From Solobacterium sp. (GTDB taxonomy: Bacteria > Bacillota_I > Bacilli_A > Erysipelotrichales > Erysipelotrichaceae): a stretch of 38,367 nucleotides of DNA. Location of the stretch: positions 1 to 38,367 of the forward strand of contig JAFOIY010000191.1 of NCBI GenBank assembly GCA_017420505.1, given 5' to 3'. The position numbers and the translations under genes were made by a program. Under the pieces are notes generated by a model. The model was not told the DNA's origin. It ran no database searches and was given only the letters and a program-made list of their open reading frames with translations. Shown in pieces: positions 5,245-38,057 of the stretch. The stretch's first letter is position 1, and each line of letters opens with the position of its first letter.

Positions 5245-6621
5245 TCAGAACCGGATTTCTTTTCTGATCTTCTCGCTGACCTCTGCGACAGTCATACGCT
5301 CCTGTGCCATGGTGTCACGGTAGCGGATCGTCACGGTTCCGTCTTCGGCCGTCTGCTCATCGACTGTGATGCAGAACGGTGTACCGACCATATCCTGACG
5401 GCGGTAGCGCTTGCCGATGGAACCGGCTTCATCGTAGTCTGTCTCAAAGTCATAGGACAGTTCCTTGCGGATGTCCTTCGCCAGCTGGGCATGCTTCTTC
5501 TGCAGCGGCAGAACAGCTGCCTTCATCGGAGCCAGTACCGGATGGAAATGCATCACGATACGTGTGCTGCCGTCCGCCAGTGTCTCTTCATCGTAGGCAT
5601 CTGTAAAGAACATGAACAGCAGACGCTCTACACCGACTGACGGTTCTACAACATACGGTACATACTTCTCGTTCGTCTTCGGATCCAGATAGCGAAGATC
5701 CTCGCCGGAGAACTTCATGTGCTGGGAGACATCGTAGTCTGTACGGTCCGCAATGCCCCATACTTCACCCCAGCCCCAAGGGAATTTGTACTCAATATCC
5801 GTCGTGCCTTTGGAGTAGAAGCTGAGCTCTTCCTTGGAGTGGTCACGGAAGCGGAGATTCTCTTCCTTTCCGCCCAGGCTCAGGATCCAGTCCATGCAGA
5901 ACTTTCTCCAGTAAGGGAACCAATCATCATCTGTTCCCGGCTCGCAGAAGAACTCCAGTTCCATCTGCTCGAATTCACGGGTACGGAAGATGAAGTTGCC
6001 CGGTGTAATTTCATTCCGGAAGCTCTTGCCGATCTGGCAGATGCCGAACGGCAGCTTCTTGCGGTAGGTACGCTGTACATTGCGGAACTGGACGAACTGT
6101 CCCTGCGCTGTTTCCGGCCTCAGATAGATGACGCTCTTGGAGTCCTCCAGGGTGCCCTGGAAGGTCTTGAACATCAGGTTGAACTGGCGGATCGGTGTGA
6201 AGTCATGCGCACCGCAGTCAGGACAGGGAATGTGGTTCTCTTCGATGTACTGTTCCATCTGTTCGTTGGTCCAGCCGTCTGCGCTGACTGTACCGTGGGA
6301 GAAATCACTGATCAGATGGTCCGCACGGTGCCGGGTATGGCAGTGACGGCAGTCCATCAGCGGATCAGAAAATCCCTTCAGGTGTCCGGAAGCTTCCCAT
6401 ACACGGGGATTCATCAGAATCGCCGCCTGAAGCTCAACGTTGTTTTCATCCTCCTGAACGAATTTCTTCTGCCAGGCCCTCTTGATATGATCTTTCAGAA
6501 GAATACCGTAGGGACCGTAATCCCAGGTATTGCTGAGACCGCCGTAGATCTCTGAACCCTGGAATACAAATCCCGTATTCTTCGCATGCGATACGATCTT
6601 GTCAAATGTCTTCTCCATCAT
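5245..6621 (-). CDS. glyS: Glycyl-tRNA synthetase, single-chain (alpha2) type
   Basis: A 458-residue class II synthetase of the eukaryote/archaea-like single-chain type, which charges tRNA-Gly. It is not the GlyQ/GlyS two-subunit enzyme found in B. subtilis. The N-terminus KTFDKIVSHAKNTGFVFQGSEIYGG, cited here only in part as FVFQGSEIYGG, is characteristic. Two CxxC pairs (CRHC near residue 91 and CPDC near 154) form the insertion zinc site. The class II motifs FRNEITPGNFIFRTREFEQ and the GVERLL motif 3 are present. The ATG at 6621 follows AAAGGAG with about 8-nt spacing. It has its own strong promoter at the end of recO and no T-box leader. Confidence 0.95.
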   Translation of the reverse strand: MMEKTFDKIVSHAKNTGFVFQGSEIYGGLSNTWDYGPYGILLKDHIKRAWQKKFVQEDENNVELQAAILMNPRVWEASGHLKGFSDPLMDCRHCHTRHRADHLISDFSHGTVSADGWTNEQMEQYIEENHIPCPDCGAHDFTPIRQFNLMFKTFQGTLEDSKSVIYLRPETAQGQFVQFRNVQRTYRKKLPFGICQIGKSFRNEITPGNFIFRTREFEQMELEFFCEPGTDDDWFPYWRKFCMDWILSLGGKEENLRFRDHSKEELSFYSKGTTDIEYKFPWGWGEVWGIADRTDYDVSQHMKFSGEDLRYLDPKTNEKYVPYVVEPSVGVERLLFMFFTDAYDEETLADGSTRIVMHFHPVLAPMKAAVLPLQKKHAQLAKDIRKELSYDFETDYDEAGSIGKRYRRQDMVGTPFCITVDEQTAEDGTVTIRYRDTMAQERMTVAEVSEKIRKEIRF

Positions 6622-28588: not shown

Positions 28589-29194
28589 TCACTCGCTCAG
28601 AGCACACAGCGCCGCGGTAATTCCCTTCACCATATCCTCCAGGCTCATGCTCGGTACATCCATCCCCTTGTCTGTACTCTGTGCAGGCAGGAACGGTACA
28701 TGGATGAAGCCGCTCTTCTTGCCGGGATACTCCCGTTCCAGCCAGTAGCGGATACCGTACAGCACATGGTTGCAGATAAAGGTGCCGGCAGTATTGGATA
28801 CCGCTGCAGGTACACCTGCATCATTGATGTACTGTACAACCTTCTTCACCGGAATGCTGGCAAAGTAGGCATCCGGACCGTCTGCGTAGATCGCTTCATC
28901 GATGACCTGCTTCCCATCGTTGTCCGGGATCCGCTGGTCATCCACATTGATGCCGATCCGTTCCACCGTCAGCTTCGCCCGGCCGCCTGCCTGTCCCAGG
29001 GACAGGATGATGTCCGGGTCCGAACGCTTGATCTCTTCCCGGATCATATCAATGGACCGGTAGCGCACCACCGGCACCAGCATCGTAATGATCTTGGCGC
29101 TGTTGATGGTTTCCGGCAGCTGCTTCAGTATTTCAGCTGCGGGGTTGATCGTTTCTCCCCCGAAAGGTTCAAATCCTGTGACCAGTATCTTCAT
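28589..29194 (-). CDS. pcp: Pyroglutamyl-peptidase I
   Basis: Encodes 201 residues of peptidase family C15, which removes N-terminal pyroglutamate from peptides in the cytosol. The start MKILVTGFEPFGGETINPA is typical. The triad is E79 in TVERIG, C141 in GTFICNHVLYG and H165 in GFIHVPFLP. The ATG at 29194 has AGGAG 6 nt upstream and lies inside the end of the histidine kinase gene (26-nt overlap), so it is the third gene of the two-component operon. Confidence 0.94.
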   Translation of the reverse strand: MKILVTGFEPFGGETINPAAEILKQLPETINSAKIITMLVPVVRYRSIDMIREEIKRSDPDIILSLGQAGGRAKLTVERIGINVDDQRIPDNDGKQVIDEAIYADGPDAYFASIPVKKVVQYINDAGVPAAVSNTAGTFICNHVLYGIRYWLEREYPGKKSGFIHVPFLPAQSTDKGMDVPSMSLEDMVKGITAALCALSE

Positions 29195-30566
29195 TCTCTT
29201 CTCCTGCCGGCAGTGCAAACCAGAATGTACTGCCTTCTCCTTCCTTGCTGCGGACACCGTACTGCGCCCCGTGAAGCTCCAGGATCTCCTTCACGATTGC
29301 CAGTCCCAGTCCGCTTCCGCTCACCGGGCGCACATGGGTCCGGTCGACCTTGTAGTACCGTTCCCAGACGTCCTTCAGCTTTTCTTCCGGTATCCCTTCT
29401 CCGTGATCCTCCACTTCTGTGATCACCTGATTGTCCTGTCGGAAGCACCGGACACCGATCCTGCGGTCTTCCGCGGAGTAGTTCACTGCATTGCTCAGGA
29501 AGTTGTTGACGACCTGGGCAATCCGCTGTTCATCCGCACGGACGTACAGATGCTCTTCGGCGGAACACACGAATTCATACCCGTCCTGTACTTTGAAGAC
29601 ATCGTACTTGCGCAGTTCCCGGCGCACCAGCTCATCCATGCTGAACACTGAATACTGCAGGCTGATCCTTTCATCCTGCAGTCTGGACAGATCCAGCAGG
29701 TCATTGACCAGGCTGTTCAGCCGCCTGGATTCATCGATGATGACCTGCAGGTTCTCGTCTGTCTTCTCTCCCGGAATGTCCCGCATCATCTCACCGTATC
29801 CGCCGATCATGGTCAGCGGCGTACGCAGATCATGCGACACATTCGCCAGCAGATCCCGCTTGGCCCGGTCGGCTTTGCGGATATCCGCGGCTGCCTGTTC
29901 CAGGGTACGGTTCAGTTCCACGGCTTCCTTGAATACATTGGTGGATTCATCTGTATGGTAGCTGCCTTCCGGAAGACTCTCCGCCTCCCGGGTGATCTTC
30001 ACCAGCGGATCGCCGATCCACCGGTTCAGCACCAGTACCAGCAGCAGCGTTGCGATGACCAGAATCCCGGCGATGAACAACATCTGGACCCGCAGCGTAC
30101 GCACCGTTGCGTTCAGCGCCGTCAGATTGGTACTGACCATGATTACCGTACCATCCTCCTGTACACGGGTACTGACGATGCTCTGCAGTCCTTCCGCACC
30201 ATGCTTGTCTTCCAGGATGCTCAGCCAGCTGCCGCCGTTCTCCTCGGCAAGTCCGATCTGTTCCTGGATTTCCCATGGACTCATCCGGTTCAGTACACAG
30301 CCTACTGCCTGATCCGTTACTTCGTACGTATCCGCAACGATCCGGATGCAGGCATCGTTTTCCCTGCTCAGCCGGTAGACGCTGTCCAGGTATGTATCGG
30401 TATCCAAGGCTTCTGCGATCTGCTCAGTGACTGTATTGACACTGCGGATCTTGGAGTGGGTATACATCGGCTGCAGCAGTACTGCCTGGAAAATGAAAAT
30501 CAACGCAATGATGAGCACTGCGTAGATTCCCAGCAGCCTGCCGGTTTTATGTTTCAGATCAGGCAT
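29169..30566 (-). CDS. Sensor histidine kinase (HAMP-HisKA-HATPase)
   Basis: Encodes a 465-residue membrane sensor kinase. Two membrane helices (about 11-31 and 160-181) flank an extracytoplasmic sensor of about 125 residues. A HAMP domain (182-235), a HisKA domain with H245 in NVSHDLRTPLT, and an HATPase_c with N-box NNFLSNAVNYS, G1 DHGEGIP and GSGLGLAIV follow. The signal is not evident. The ATG at 30566 is inside the end of the regulator gene (8-nt overlap); TTG 30575 is possible. Partner of the adjacent OmpR-family regulator. Confidence 0.93.
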   Translation of the reverse strand: MPDLKHKTGRLLGIYAVLIIALIFIFQAVLLQPMYTHSKIRSVNTVTEQIAEALDTDTYLDSVYRLSRENDACIRIVADTYEVTDQAVGCVLNRMSPWEIQEQIGLAEENGGSWLSILEDKHGAEGLQSIVSTRVQEDGTVIMVSTNLTALNATVRTLRVQMLFIAGILVIATLLLVLVLNRWIGDPLVKITREAESLPEGSYHTDESTNVFKEAVELNRTLEQAAADIRKADRAKRDLLANVSHDLRTPLTMIGGYGEMMRDIPGEKTDENLQVIIDESRRLNSLVNDLLDLSRLQDERISLQYSVFSMDELVRRELRKYDVFKVQDGYEFVCSAEEHLYVRADEQRIAQVVNNFLSNAVNYSAEDRRIGVRCFRQDNQVITEVEDHGEGIPEEKLKDVWERYYKVDRTHVRPVSGSGLGLAIVKEILELHGAQYGVRSKEGEGSTFWFALPAGEENEDTGHRI

Positions 30567-31233
30567 CTTTTTCAAAGCGGTAGCCGACTCCTCTCAACGT
30601 TACAATGCATTTGCCGTAGGGACCGAGATTCTTTCTCAGAAGCTTCATATGTGTATCCAGCGTACGGTCATCTCCGAAATAGTTGTATCCCCACACATGC
30701 TCCAGAACAGCCTCTCTTGTTACAGCAATGCCCCGGTTGCGGATCAGATACACCAGCAGTTCATACTCCTTCGGCGAGAACGCCACCCGCTCCCCGTCAA
30801 CCGTTACCACACGTGCAGAATAATCCACTTCCAGACCGCCCATGACGAAACGGTCCTCTGCGGCTTCTCCGCCGGTGCGCTTGAGGATCGCCTTTACACG
30901 CATCATGAGTTCCTTGCCGGAGAACGGTTTGACAACATAGTCGTCGGCGCCGACATCGAAGCCATGGATCCGGTCGTATTCCTCGCCCAGCGCCGTCAGC
31001 ATGATCACGGGGATCTGCGGATTGAACCTGCGGATGTCCTTGACAGCCGAAAACCCGTCCAGCTCCGGCATCATGACATCCATGATCACCAGATCATAAT
31101 GCCGGCTGCGGCACATCTCCACCGCCTGCATCCCGTCCGGTGCTTCATCGGCCTCAAAGCCTTCATATACGGCGTATTTCCGGATCATCGTCCGGATGTT
31201 CGCTTCATCATCGACAATCAACAGTCTGGTCAT
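30559..31233 (-). CDS. OmpR/PhoB-family response regulator
   Basis: Encodes 224 residues. The receiver domain has D8/D9, the phosphorylation site D52 in VIMDVMMP, T/A switch ALG and the lysine in VVKPFS. A winged-helix DNA-binding domain (about 125-224) contains FSPKEYELLVYLIRNRG and VGYRFE. ATG 31233 is favoured because a TATACT ends 6 nt before it. There is no ribosome site, and the TTG at 31254 has none either. Direct repeats spaced by 11 bp lie upstream and may be its own operator. Confidence 0.94.
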   Translation of the reverse strand: MTRLLIVDDEANIRTMIRKYAVYEGFEADEAPDGMQAVEMCRSRHYDLVIMDVMMPELDGFSAVKDIRRFNPQIPVIMLTALGEEYDRIHGFDVGADDYVVKPFSGKELMMRVKAILKRTGGEAAEDRFVMGGLEVDYSARVVTVDGERVAFSPKEYELLVYLIRNRGIAVTREAVLEHVWGYNYFGDDRTLDTHMKLLRKNLGPYGKCIVTLRGVGYRFEKDA

Positions 31234-31239
31234 AGTGTG

Positions 31240-31274
31240 AGTATAGCTGTCCAATCTGAACTTCCGGTGAACTT
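31240..31274 (-). promoter_or_regulatory. Promoter and candidate operator of the response-regulator operon
   Basis: The -10 TATACT is at 31240-31245. The 7-bp repeat AAGTTCA occurs twice on the coding strand (31268-31274 and 31257-31263), offset by exactly 11 bp, where the -35 would be. This is the usual geometry of OmpR-family sites. Confidence 0.5.
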
Positions 31275-32984: not shown

Positions 32985-33007
32985 GGATTCCGCAGGGAAT
33001 CCTTTTT
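32985..33007 (+). terminator. Terminator of the unknown gene upstream of ktrB
   Basis: GGATTCC/GGAATCC (7 bp) around GCAG, followed by TTTTT. Its T run is also the beginning of the first KdpE-like repeat. Confidence 0.88.
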
Positions 33008-33022
33008 AACGGAATTTTAACG
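33004..33022 (+). promoter_or_regulatory. Candidate KdpE/OmpR-type operator upstream of ktrB
   Basis: TTTTAACG occurs at 33004-33011 and 33015-33022, offset 11 bp (TTTAAC-N5-TTTAAC). It lies 43-61 bp upstream of the ktrB -10, an activator position. A weaker copy (TCTTAATG) is at 33047-33054. Confidence 0.55.
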
Positions 33023-33064
33023 CAGAGGCAGGCAACCCTAACACCGTCTTAATGCCCTGAATCC

Positions 33065-33070
33065 TATAAT
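33065..33070 (+). promoter_or_regulatory. -10 box (TATAAT) of the ktrB operon
   Basis: A perfect TATAAT 22 nt before ATG 33093 with no good -35, consistent with a promoter that needs an activator. Confidence 0.6.
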
Positions 33071-33092
33071 GGGCTCAGAACAGGAGTTCTCT

Positions 33093-34433
33093 ATGAAGGA
33101 TTTCAGGACATTTCTGCAGGATCATTTCACATCATTCCGCACCATTCTGCTCAGTTTTCTATCCCTGATCTTTATCGGTGCGTTCCTGCTGTGCCTGCCG
33201 GTCTGCTCAGCATCCGGCCGCAGCACGCCGTTTCCTGATGCCCTGTTCACCGCTACATCGGCGGTCTGCGTAACCGGACTGGTCGTCTGCGATACGGCAG
33301 CTTCCTGGTCCGTATTCGGCAAATGTGTACTGCTGTTCCTGATCCAGATCGGCGGGCTGGGTGTTATGACCATTGCGGTCGCTGTCTTTGTCCTGACCGG
33401 GCAGCGGATCAGCATCCTGCAGCGCAGTACGATGCGTGATTCCATCTCTGCCCCGCAGATCGGCGGAATTGTCCGCCTGACCGGCTTTATACTGAAGGTC
33501 ACCCTGCTCATTGAGGCCATAGGCACTGCACTGCTCTCCTTCGTCTTCATCCCGCGCTACGGTGTGATGACGGGGATCGGCTATGCATTGTTCCATTCCG
33601 TATCCGCTTTCTGCAACGCAGGCTTTGACCTTATGGGCACCAACGCTCCCTACGCCTCGCTGACCGCCTATGCTGCAAACATACATGTCAATCTGATCAT
33701 CATTTCGCTGATCATCTGCGGCGGGCTCGGGTTCCTGACCTGGCAGGATCTGCTGCAGAACCGTTTCCGTTTCCACAGACTCCGGCTGCAGACCAAGATC
33801 ATCCTGACAACAACCCTGTGCCTGATCGTCTTCCCCTTCGTGATTCTGTTCTTCTTTGAATTCACGGATGTACCGGTCAAGGAGAGGATCCTGCTGTCCC
33901 TGTTCCAGTCTGTAACCCCGCGTACAGCCGGCTTCAATACCTATGATTACGCAAGCATGTCGGAGAACAGCCTGCTGATGACCATCCTGCTGATGCTCAT
34001 TGGAGGCGCACCGGGATCCGCTGCCGGCGGTATGAAAGTTACAACCTTCTACGTCGTCGTCGCTTCCGCTTTCTCCTCCATGAGGCAGAACAATGATGTC
34101 AACTGCTTCATGCGGAGGCTGGAGCCGTCCACGGTACGCAATGCCCATACCCTGCTCTGCCTCTATCTGTTCCTTCTTATTACAGGAGCGTACATCATCG
34201 CCGCGAGGGAACACCTGCCCATCATCCGTACCCTGTTCGAATGTGCTTCGGCACTGGGCACCGTCGGTCTGACGACCGGAATTACACCCGGGCTGTCCCA
34301 CCTGTCCCGGGCAATACTCATCCTGTTCATGTATTTCGGACGTGTCGGCGGGCTGACGCTTGCCTACGCATCCGTATCCGGAATCCGCATCAGGACCAGC
34401 AAGTATCCGCTGGAAAAGATCAGCGTCGGCTGA
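33093..34433 (+). CDS. ktrB: Potassium uptake protein KtrB/TrkH family
   Basis: Encodes a 446-residue membrane channel subunit, the length of KtrB. Four M1-P-M2 repeats are recognisable by their filter segments: TSAVCVTGL, SVSAFCNAGFDL, SVTPRTAGFNT and ASALGTVGLTTG, each with the selectivity-filter glycine. The ATG 33093 follows CAGGAG by 6 nt; an upstream ATG at 33069 overlaps the -10 box and was rejected. It forms the K+ translocating part, gated by the KtrA ring encoded 12 nt downstream. Confidence 0.95.
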   Translation: MKDFRTFLQDHFTSFRTILLSFLSLIFIGAFLLCLPVCSASGRSTPFPDALFTATSAVCVTGLVVCDTAASWSVFGKCVLLFLIQIGGLGVMTIAVAVFVLTGQRISILQRSTMRDSISAPQIGGIVRLTGFILKVTLLIEAIGTALLSFVFIPRYGVMTGIGYALFHSVSAFCNAGFDLMGTNAPYASLTAYAANIHVNLIIISLIICGGLGFLTWQDLLQNRFRFHRLRLQTKIILTTTLCLIVFPFVILFFFEFTDVPVKERILLSLFQSVTPRTAGFNTYDYASMSENSLLMTILLMLIGGAPGSAAGGMKVTTFYVVVASAFSSMRQNNDVNCFMRRLEPSTVRNAHTLLCLYLFLLITGAYIIAAREHLPIIRTLFECASALGTVGLTTGITPGLSHLSRAILILFMYFGRVGGLTLAYASVSGIRIRTSKYPLEKISVG

Positions 34434-34445
34434 TCAGGAGGCTGA

Positions 34446-35090
34446 ATGAAAAACATACTAGTGATCGGTGCCGGAAGATTCGGACTGTACACCTGTTCTG
34501 CCCTGCATGATATGGGCCACCAGATCATGCTCGTAGACAAGAACGAGGACCGGATCAACCAGGTACTGCCCTATGTAACCAACGCTCAGATCGGTGACAG
34601 TACGGACGAAGCATTCATGAAATCGCTCGGGATCCGGAACTACGATCTCTGCATCGTCGCAATCGGTGATGACTTCATGAGTTCCCTGGAGACTACCTAT
34701 CTGCTTCATGAACTCGGTGCGGAAAAGGTCGTCTCGCGGGTCACGAGCGGCTCCCAGGAGAAATTCCTGCTGCGCAATGGTGCGGACGCGGTTGTCTTCC
34801 CTGAGCGCCAGCTGGGGGCGTGGACAGCCATCCGCTACTCATCCGACGCCATCTCCAACTACATCGAAGTCATGGACGGCTACTCCATCTTCGAGCTCAA
34901 TGTACCGAAGGAATGGGACAACCTTCCTGTCGGGACCATCAATGCCCGGAACAAATACGGAATCAATATACTGGGTGTAAAGAACGGCAAAATGGAAATG
35001 AACATTACAGGTGATACTGTACTGCATTTCGGACAGACCATGCTGGTTCTTGGAAAAACCCAGGAGATACAGAAGATGTTCAGTCTGTAG
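34446..35090 (+). CDS. ktrA: Potassium uptake regulator KtrA (TrkA family)
   Basis: Encodes a 214-residue cytoplasmic RCK protein that forms an octameric ring gating KtrB. The RCK_N Rossmann fold has VIGAGRFGLYTC, with LVDKNEDR for nucleotide binding and GDSTDEAFM. An RCK_C domain (about 140-214) follows. In Staphylococcus RCK_C of KtrA binds c-di-AMP; whether this one does cannot be judged by eye. AGGAGG lies 5 nt before the ATG. The stop is TAG. Confidence 0.95.
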   Translation: MKNILVIGAGRFGLYTCSALHDMGHQIMLVDKNEDRINQVLPYVTNAQIGDSTDEAFMKSLGIRNYDLCIVAIGDDFMSSLETTYLLHELGAEKVVSRVTSGSQEKFLLRNGADAVVFPERQLGAWTAIRYSSDAISNYIEVMDGYSIFELNVPKEWDNLPVGTINARNKYGINILGVKNGKMEMNITGDTVLHFGQTMLVLGKTQEIQKMFSL

Positions 35091-35102: not shown

Positions 35103-35426
35103 ATGAATGAACTGATCGTTATCGTGTGCTGCTTCGCTTTCTCTGCAGCCATCATCTACATCACCATCAACAGAATCTATGATGAGATTCTGCCCGAACA
35201 GAGTGAACCGGAGCGTTCCTATGCACCGGAATACCGGATTCTGACCGACAACCTGGATATGCTTCACTATGTACGCAAGCACTTTGAACCGGGCGAGTAT
35301 TCCCTCTGTCTGAAAAGCAGACGGGAACTGCTGAATGAATGCCGCAAGGAAAGCCAGAGCATTGCCATTCTGGAGCCGGTCAAGGACCATGCGAACAAAA
35401 ACCGGATGAGTATATCGGGGCGTTAG
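35103..35426 (+). CDS. Small single-pass membrane protein of unknown function (107 aa)
   Basis: I do not recognise this 107-residue protein. A hydrophobic helix (about 3-22, LIVIVCCFAFSAAIIYI) is followed by a charged, probably cytosolic part with HYVRKHFEPGEYSLCLKS and RRELLNECRKE. AGGACGG precedes the ATG. It starts 12 nt after ktrA and ends 47 nt before the KdpD-like gene; the stop is TAG. Its place between transporter and kinase suggests a link to K+ uptake, by inference only. Confidence 0.65.
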   Translation: MNELIVIVCCFAFSAAIIYITINRIYDEILPEQSEPERSYAPEYRILTDNLDMLHYVRKHFEPGEYSLCLKSRRELLNECRKESQSIAILEPVKDHANKNRMSISGR

Positions 35427-35427
35427 G

Positions 35428-35456
35428 TTGAGGTTCCGGCACAGCCTGCATACAAT
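35428..35456 (+). promoter_or_regulatory. Promoter of the kdpD-like/kdpE pair (TTGAGG, 17 bp, TACAAT)
   Basis: TTGAGG at 35428-35433, 17-bp spacer, TACAAT at 35451-35456. The leader would be about 10 nt. No strong ribosome site. Confidence 0.65.
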
Positions 35457-35473: not shown

Positions 35474-37387
35474 ATGACTGCTGACAAGAACGCAAAACAG
35501 AACATACTGGTCTGCCTTTCCCCCTCCCCGAGCAATCCGAGGGTCATCCGAACAGCCGCAAAACTGTTCAACAAACGGACGGACAGTTTTATTGCGCTGT
35601 ATGTAGGCAGTCTGAATGAGGACCTGAGCGAAGACAGCCAGCTGCGCAGGAACATCGCCTACGCAGAATCCTGCGGGGCAGAAGTCCAGATCATCGAAAG
35701 CAGCGATATCGTCCTGACCATATCCGAATTCGCCAGGTTTACAGGAGCAACCGATCTGTTCATCGGCTACAGTGTTCCCTCGCACATCATCCAGTCCCGC
35801 AGCATCCCCGAACAGCTCATATCCGCGCTGCCGGAGACCGATATCCATATTATTCCCGATACCAAGGCTTCCTCCTACCATCTTGCAAGAAGGCATTCGG
35901 AGGCACCGGTATGGAATATGAAGGACTTCCTGCTGGTAATCATCATCATGGCAATCGCCACAGGAATCTCCTACTGGTTTGACAGATCCATCTACAGCAA
36001 CTCCAACATCATTACGATCTATATCCTTGCCGTGCTGATCGCTTCCATTCTGAGCTCCCACCAGATCTACGGCATCCTCGCTTCCGTGTTCTACATTCTG
36101 CTGATCAATTTCCTGTTCATAGAGCCACGGTTTACTTTCCTCTTCTATGACTCTTCCTACATTGTCACCTACTTCGTCTCTTTCCTGGCTGCGCTGATCA
36201 CCGGAACCCTGGCTGTACGGTTGAAGGACATTGCCCGCCAGGCAGCGGAAAACGCCTACCAGGGAAAGGTCCTGCTGGACACTTCGGACCAGATGAAGAA
36301 AGCGACCGGCAGGCAGGAGATCATCCGGATTGCCTGTACGCAGCTGGGCGACCTGCTGAAGCGGCCGGTGGTGTTCTTCAGCCCCGATGATACATCCGAA
36401 GACCAGGAAGAAACAGAGATCCTGCGCTCGGTCTGTGAAGGCAAGCAGCAGGCAGGTGCCTATACCGGCCGGTTCTCCCAGCACCCCTACAGATATCTCC
36501 GGATTGCCTCGGATCAGACAGTATACGGTGTTCTGCGCATTGACATGAAAGGCCGGTCCTTTACCGAATTCGAGAATACCCTTCTTCTCTCGATCATCAA
36601 TGAGTTCATTCTTGCCCTGAACAACGAGCACACCATGCAGGAGAAAGCAGCGGCGGAGATCCAGGCAGAACAGGAGCGCTACCGGGCAGGACTGCTGCGT
36701 TCGCTGTCCCACGATCTGCGCACACCGCTGACCTCCATCATCGGCAATACTTCAAACCTGATCTCCATGGGTTCCTCCATGGAAGAAAACGACAAGCAGA
36801 CCATCTATGAAGACATCCGGGAAGATTCCTTCTGGCTTGCGTCACAGATGGAGAATATACTGTCTATGAGCCGTTTGGAGAACAACCGGTATATCCAGCC
36901 GAGCATAGAAAACGTTGAAGATGTCATCCAGGAGAGCCTGAACCATCTGGACTACCGGGCCAGCGAGCACACAATCACCTTCCAAAGGCCGGAGGAAGCA
37001 CTGTTCGCTGAAATGGATTCCCGCCTGATCCTGCAGGTCCTGACCAACCTGATCAACAATGCCATCAAGCATACACCTGCGGGATCAGCCATAACCATCC
37101 GCTGCACCAAGGAAGATGGTCTTATCTTCATTTCGATAGCGGATGATGGTGATGGGATTCCTGATGGAATGAAGGAACACATCTTCGATCTCTACTATAC
37201 CGGGCACAGAGGACTGTCCGAAACAAACCGGAGCATGGGAATCGGTCTGAATCTCTGCGCTATGATACTGCAGGCACACGGTCAGAAGATCGAAGTGCTG
37301 GACAACCATCCGAAAGGAACCATATTCCGTTTCAGTCTGAAAGCAAAGGAGCTGCAGGATGAAAGAATCCAGAATACTGATTGTTGA
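35474..37387 (+). CDS. KdpD-like sensor kinase without the N-terminal KdpD domain
   Basis: Encodes 637 residues; full KdpD proteins are near 890. It begins directly with a USP domain (10-130) and lacks the ~210-residue KdpD domain with its Walker motifs. A DUF4118-type block of four membrane helices (about 151-250), a GAF-like part (265-385), HisKA with H413 in LSHDLRTPLT and HATPase_c (NLINNAIKH, DDGDGIP) follow. S16-P-S18, 20 residues, then F39-I-A41-L-Y43 matches the published SxS-X20-FTAxY c-di-AMP motif of KdpD except for I40. Downstream of ktrAB, with no kdpFABC in view. Confidence 0.9.
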   Translation: MTADKNAKQNILVCLSPSPSNPRVIRTAAKLFNKRTDSFIALYVGSLNEDLSEDSQLRRNIAYAESCGAEVQIIESSDIVLTISEFARFTGATDLFIGYSVPSHIIQSRSIPEQLISALPETDIHIIPDTKASSYHLARRHSEAPVWNMKDFLLVIIIMAIATGISYWFDRSIYSNSNIITIYILAVLIASILSSHQIYGILASVFYILLINFLFIEPRFTFLFYDSSYIVTYFVSFLAALITGTLAVRLKDIARQAAENAYQGKVLLDTSDQMKKATGRQEIIRIACTQLGDLLKRPVVFFSPDDTSEDQEETEILRSVCEGKQQAGAYTGRFSQHPYRYLRIASDQTVYGVLRIDMKGRSFTEFENTLLLSIINEFILALNNEHTMQEKAAAEIQAEQERYRAGLLRSLSHDLRTPLTSIIGNTSNLISMGSSMEENDKQTIYEDIREDSFWLASQMENILSMSRLENNRYIQPSIENVEDVIQESLNHLDYRASEHTITFQRPEEALFAEMDSRLILQVLTNLINNAIKHTPAGSAITIRCTKEDGLIFISIADDGDGIPDGMKEHIFDLYYTGHRGLSETNRSMGIGLNLCAMILQAHGQKIEVLDNHPKGTIFRFSLKAKELQDERIQNTDC

Positions 37388-38057
37388 AGATGACCGGTCC
37401 ATCATGAACCTCATCTCAACAACATTGAAACTGAACCAGTATGAATATGTATGTGCTTCCGGCGGAAAGGAAGCCGTTTCCCAATGTGCTTCCTATGCAC
37501 CGGCATTGATCCTGCTGGATCTCGGTCTTCCCGATATGGACGGCATTGACGTCATCCGTACGGTCAGAACCTGGTCGCAGGTACCGATCATCGTAATCAG
37601 TGCCCGGGGAGAGGATTCCGACAAGATCGAAGCACTGGACAACGGTGCGGATGATTACCTGACCAAACCTTTTTCCGTCGATGAGATGATGGCCAGGATC
37701 CGGGCTGCCCTGCGCCGCAGCATACAGCTGGCTTCCGGCTCCTCGGAATCCGTCTACCGCAACGGAGATCTGTTCATAGACTATGCAGCGTCCATTGTCA
37801 AGCGCGGTGAGCGGGAAATCCACCTGACCCCGATCGAGTACAAACTGCTCTGCCTGCTGAGCAGGAATACAGGCAAGGTACTGACCCATTCCTACATTAT
37901 CCAGCATATCTGGGGCAGTACGATGGAAACGGATATTGTATCCCTTCGTGTCTATATGACTTCGCTGCGCAGGAAGCTGAGCCAGGATGAATCCGAAGAA
38001 GCATTGATCCGTACCCACGTCGGAATCGGATACCAAATGGTCCGTGCAGAAGAATAA
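37359..38057 (+). CDS. kdpE: KdpE-like response regulator (OmpR family)
   Basis: Encodes 232 residues. Receiver D10-D11-D12 acidic pocket, phosphorylation site D54 in LILLDLGLPD, and K103 in YLTKPFS. The winged helix (about 130-230) contains LTPIEYKLLCLLSRNTGKVLTH, cited as LTPIEYKLL, and HVGIGYQMV. The ATG follows AAGGAG by 7 nt and overlaps the kinase gene by 29 nt. With the kinase it probably controls K+ uptake. The TTTAAC repeats ahead of ktrB are its best candidate target. Confidence 0.92.
   Translation: MKESRILIVEDDRSIMNLISTTLKLNQYEYVCASGGKEAVSQCASYAPALILLDLGLPDMDGIDVIRTVRTWSQVPIIVISARGEDSDKIEALDNGADDYLTKPFSVDEMMARIRAALRRSIQLASGSSESVYRNGDLFIDYAASIVKRGEREIHLTPIEYKLLCLLSRNTGKVLTHSYIIQHIWGSTMETDIVSLRVYMTSLRRKLSQDESEEALIRTHVGIGYQMVRAEE

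Follow-up and report, generated by a model that had tools for sequence, protein, structure and literature searches.

The ktrB promoter of the window (the whole stretch of 38,367 nucleotides analysed here) very probably carries, at positions 33005-33053, a double operator for the response regulator KdpE, which would drive a ktrB-ktrA-small ORF-kdpD-kdpE operon in place of kdpFABC. Throughout the genus, this operator and its two-component switch appear to have been retained, while the K+ transporter placed beneath them is KtrAB and not KdpFABC. This would be a case of regulatory rewiring that supplies its own natural controls, in versions that are linked, unlinked, lost or changed in their half-sites; the double-box layout also leads to a concrete prediction for E. 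coli K-12. A literature search, mostly of open-access papers, found no report of KdpE operators at ktr genes.

All the features of this promoter and operon lie on the forward strand. The distal pair of half-sites, TTTAACGGAATTTTAAC (33005-33021), consists of TTTAAC at 33005-33010 and again at 33016-33021, starting 11 bp further on; both 6-bp half-sites are T/A-rich, and 5 bp separate them, as in a KdpE operator. The original prediction had drawn attention to this direct repeat, and the observation stands: TTTAACN5TTTAAC matches only once on the two strands of the 38 kb, none of 100 dinucleotide shuffles contains one, and the repeat extends to two 8-bp copies of TTTTAACG (33004-33011 and 33015-33022) offset by exactly 11 bp. 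The operator proposed from it had two half-sites, however, and the one found here has four. A proximal tandem repeat, CCTAAC-N5-CTTAAT, occupies 33037-33053, with half-site 3 at 33037-33042 (21 bp past half-site 2) and half-site 4 at 33048-33053 (11 bp past half-site 3), all four being predicted KdpE half-sites. The proximal box starts 32 bp after the distal one, about three helical turns. The leading TT is present in both distal half-sites; the proximal ones begin with CC and CT. A -10 box, TATAAT (33065-33070), begins 17 bp downstream of the first base of half-site 4, and a promoter scan upstream of ktrB found no acceptable -35 partner for it, in agreement with what had been noted at first; the proximal pair covers the expected -35 position, which accounts for the absence. 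Judged by the position of the -10 only, the distal box would span about -72 to -56 relative to the predicted transcription start, much like the KdpE footprint of E. coli (-72 to -50). Translation of ktrB starts at the ATG at 33093, preceded by AGGAG at 33082-33086.

We compared the DNA upstream of ktrB in 70 genomes of the same genus, mostly drafts. Nearly all loci in which ktrB is linked to kdpDE share the same layout, with four TTTAAY half-sites at spacings of 11, then 20 or 21, then 11 bp. In a dereplicated set of 29 sites, the information content of the TTAA cores is 1.6-2.0 bits per column, and the distance from the first base of the fourth half-site to that of the -10 is 17 bp in every one. 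The four-half-site element is found at all 46 ktrB promoters with kdpDE downstream (a number that includes three on contigs ending before kdpDE) and at none of the 15 without kdpDE, so that the repeat is indeed conserved ahead of ktrB in related genomes. For testing, the weight matrix left out the tested site and those similar to it. The window site then scores 44.2 bits, and no shuffle exceeds -11; all 46 linked promoters score above all 60 shuffles, and 0/15 unlinked ktrB promoters do. In a matrix scan of the window, the site reaches 49.6, and the best score at any unrelated place is -4.9. The second TrkH gene of the window genome (C103) and the region before kdpD are without the element. 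KdpA was found in only one of the 70 genomes of the genus, and its absence from the other 69 upholds the claim that a Ktr system, and not a Kdp ATPase, is at stake.

These counts have to be read against the phylogeny. Linked and unlinked ktrB genes fall largely in different clades, and there are therefore few independent co-changes: linkage and element co-vary at five changes on the tree, of which only two are well-supported pairs, too few for a tree-based sign test to have power. A strict form of the pattern is present once and only once in each of 43/70 genomes, and its reversed control has no match in these 70; across a set of 273 genomes the reversed control gave 5 matches. G027, which belongs to the 43, has the look of a chance match, as it lies in A+T-rich DNA of a genome without kdpD, and the matches in G148, G172, G191, G239 and G252 likewise have the appearance of A+T-rich chance occurrences, that of G239 failing the matrix. 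At G157 the ktrB promoter scores above shuffles but has a poor proximal box and -10, and at G007 (L108) a degenerate copy can be seen by eye, yet it does not beat the shuffles. A single-protein scan of named genomes returned one locus, from a Solobacterium sp. rumen MAG whose KdpD is 99% identical.

A matrix built from ktrB promoters only was run over the 600 bp ahead of kdpA in 20 genomes, which represent 13 other genera. A KdpD relative is present in 20/20 of these genomes. The kdp promoter of G006 was left out of the analysis, since the end of its KdpA contig looks chimeric. Outside genus g24, the kdpFABC promoters of all 15 genomes (12 genera) score above each of 100 shuffles, always with the -10 at 17, and in another family of the order the promoters of two genomes likewise beat their shuffles. 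The kdpFABC promoters of the same family (L152-L163, L166) have the four half-sites, the spacing and the -10 distance seen at ktrB, but they control a Kdp ATPase, mostly together with a full-length KdpD of about 900 aa. Sequence comparison establishes the element and its geometry and shows that it is linked to kdpDE and that it is the element found at the kdpFABC promoters of relatives; in our view the match of a ktrB-derived matrix at kdpFABC promoters is the decisive evidence pointing to KdpE as the regulator. It also supports the original proposal that KdpE would control the Ktr system, as does the presence of the same element before other operons that carry kdpDE. The kdpFABC promoters of genus g24 itself (L164, L165, L167-L169) show one clear tandem pair, beside the -10, in a single-box version.

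Where kdpDE adjoins other K+ genes, the four-half-site layout goes with kdpDE. In G016, G018 and G039 the element precedes a ktrA-kdpD-kdpE operon located away from ktrB, and the ktrB copies of G018 and G039 are without it. In G064, kdpDE lies behind a TPR-trkA-trkA-trkH cluster, and the element stands in front of that operon. Conversely, the KtrB of G055 shares 84% identity with the protein of a linked relative, the ktrB promoter of G055 has no element, and no kdpD was found anywhere in this 92%-complete genome. In G065 (L110, near 5980-6050), where a cluster like that of G064 stands beside kdpDE, the geometry of its promoter is unchanged and every half-site has gone from TTAAC to CTCAC, the four CTCAC half-sites lying at offsets 3, 14, 34 and 45 and a TACAAT at 61. 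The recognition helix of the KdpE of G065 is altered as well (LRALMAALRRKI versus LRVYMTSLRRKL), making this a possible natural case of an operator and its regulator changing together. The alternative cluster of a TPR protein, two trkA and trkH was seen in L107, L108, L109 and L110, with kdpDE behind it and a protein of about 180 aa between them in L107-L109, and with kdpDE beside the cluster in L110. A lone TPR gene in G006 (L103) retains the element without trk genes.

Half-sites in tandem at 11-bp intervals are a general feature of the OmpR/PhoB family, and TTAAC-like half-sites occur in other members. PhoB/PhoP-type tandem boxes, in particular, have half-sites 11 bp apart beside a -10 without a -35, a layout like that of the window site, although regulator, half-site and regulon are different. 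The site might then be the operator of another regulator of this type, PhoP or WalR for example, or that of the PhoB-like pair, with a second response regulator, that the window encodes at 29169-31254. We consider this very unlikely, because the element follows kdpDE through three types of operon, was lost together with kdpDE in G055 and precedes kdpFABC in other genera, and because one copy per genome is unlike a phosphate or cell-wall regulon.

The membrane subunit KtrB (33093-34433) belongs to the TrkH/KtrB family (PF02386), and the RCK subunit KtrA (34446-35090) has TrkA_N and TrkA_C domains, the two components of a Ktr/Trk K+ uptake system. The kdpE gene (37359-38057) encodes an OmpR/PhoB-type response regulator whose best NCBIfam family is KdpE, at 213 bits (below the equivalog cut-off of 325), and whose closest solved structure is E. 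coli KdpE (4kny). Residues R193, R200 and T215, which E. coli KdpE needs for DNA binding (PMC3264566), are conserved in it. In the KdpDE-like pair first reported at the end of the cluster, the regulator is best called KdpE-type, and the kinase (35474-37387) is a short form, with a USP region, DUF4118, HisKA and HATPase. It lacks PF02702, for which reason we call it KdpD-like, and it scores 234 bits against a KdpD equivalog cut-off of 1123. Its USP region fits exactly, as CLSPSPSN with a Y 22 residues on, the motif (A/G/C)XSXSX2N...(Y/F) of KdpD proteins that bind c-di-AMP (PMC8214093), and an effect of c-di-AMP is therefore possible; the full motif is present in 26/59 KdpD sequences of the genus.

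Between ktrA and kdpD, a small protein of 107 aa (35103-35426) has one apparent N-terminal membrane helix, as judged by inspection, and no match in Pfam or NCBIfam. Most loci (L066, L067, L080, L084, L089 and others) have a small, fast-evolving protein of 50-166 aa in this slot, likewise with one apparent N-terminal membrane helix, its position being kept among relatives and its sequence not. It may serve as an accessory subunit, or may connect the transporter with the kinase. Just before kdpD, a promoter-like TTGAGG-N17-TACAAT (35428-35456) could provide basal KdpDE independently of the operon promoter.

From these elements we infer the following circuit. At low K+ the KdpD-like kinase would phosphorylate KdpE, two dimers of which would then occupy the tandem boxes, both on the same face of the double helix. 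The proximal dimer, by analogy with PhoB at pho boxes, would most likely touch RNA polymerase in place of a -35 and recruit it to TATAAT. Activation would transcribe ktrB-ktrA-small ORF-kdpD-kdpE, yielding KtrBA and more KdpDE, and, kdpDE being the tail of the operon, induction would feed back positively. A high level of c-di-AMP could dampen this circuit by way of the USP region of KdpD.

KdpE might instead bind as a repressor, or mainly to autoregulate kdpDE, with ktrBA transcribed from a basal promoter; this would suit the position of the proximal box over the -35/-10 spacer region and the ktrA-kdpDE operons that the element would drive without ktrB in G016, G018 and G039. Such an arrangement is highly improbable, given that a -10 without a -35 is what activator-dependent promoters have and that E. 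coli KdpE activates kdpFABC from an equally distant site (PMC3264566). There is next to no chance that the repeat is a by-product of the upstream gene, whose terminator-like hairpin (GGATTCC-GCAG-GGAATCC then TTTTT, 32985-33007, with the stem-loop at 32985-33002) runs from 33003 into half-site 1 and the first repeat copy with its T-tract, together with a TTTTAAC copy arisen by chance in A+T-rich promoter DNA: the comparative data already refute it, as relatives that have half-site 1 as CTTAAT and no T-tract, and relatives without the terminator, retain the half-sites at fixed spacing to the -10, and shuffles never attain the site scores.

Two systems from other bacteria come near to this arrangement. 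The closest precedent is M. tuberculosis, where deletion of kdpDE alters trk expression (PMC8358298), so that KdpDE can reach a Trk-type transporter; that species differs in that a Kdp ATPase is also present, and the abstract mentions no operator at the trk genes. In B. thuringiensis, a Gram-positive bacterium in which transcription of a K+ transporter is likewise controlled, kdpFABC is under a c-di-AMP riboswitch (PMC6488665), whereas an Rfam search of the window found no riboswitch family.

The site in E. coli to which the window operator is to be compared is TTTATA-N5-TTTACA at kdpFABC, where one footprint of 23 bp covers -72 to -50 (PMC3264566). The leading TT is invariant in the kdpFABC half-sites (PMC3264566), and its absence from half-site 3 of the window counts against the match. 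Both operators have a pair of T-rich 6-bp half-sites separated by 5 bp, the contact residues of KdpE are conserved, and the distance from the start of half-site 1 to the -10 is 60 bp in the window and 59 bp in E. coli. They differ in the half-site (TTTAAY in the genus of the window, TTTAYA in E. coli), in the genes controlled (ktrBA and kdpFABC, respectively) and in the number of boxes, one having been described in E. coli and two being clear in the window.

We tentatively suggest, as something that could be so but that we would put at slightly less than an even chance, that the double box, with sites 31-33 bp apart and the second replacing the -35, is the general and ancient layout of promoters under KdpE; that E. 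coli kdpFABC would then carry an undescribed second box, TTTGCG-N5-TTTGCA; and that the module has moved, with kdpDE, between kdpFABC, ktrBA, ktrA and trkAAH operons. A second repeat was not seen at the kdpFABC promoters of Deinococcus or S. fredii, and in R. leguminosarum the score is not clearly above those of the shuffles. Second 11-bp direct repeats, some of them weak, occur at kdpFABC of Enterobacter, Duffyella, Ideonella, Mycetohabitans and Acetobacter, and lie 31-33 bp past the known KdpE box in E. coli and several other Proteobacteria (L173, L185, L186, L187, L189 and L193). Upstream of kdpF in E. coli K-12 (L173), in an exploratory search made after the fact, TTTGCG-N5-TTTGCA was found 32 bp after the known box.
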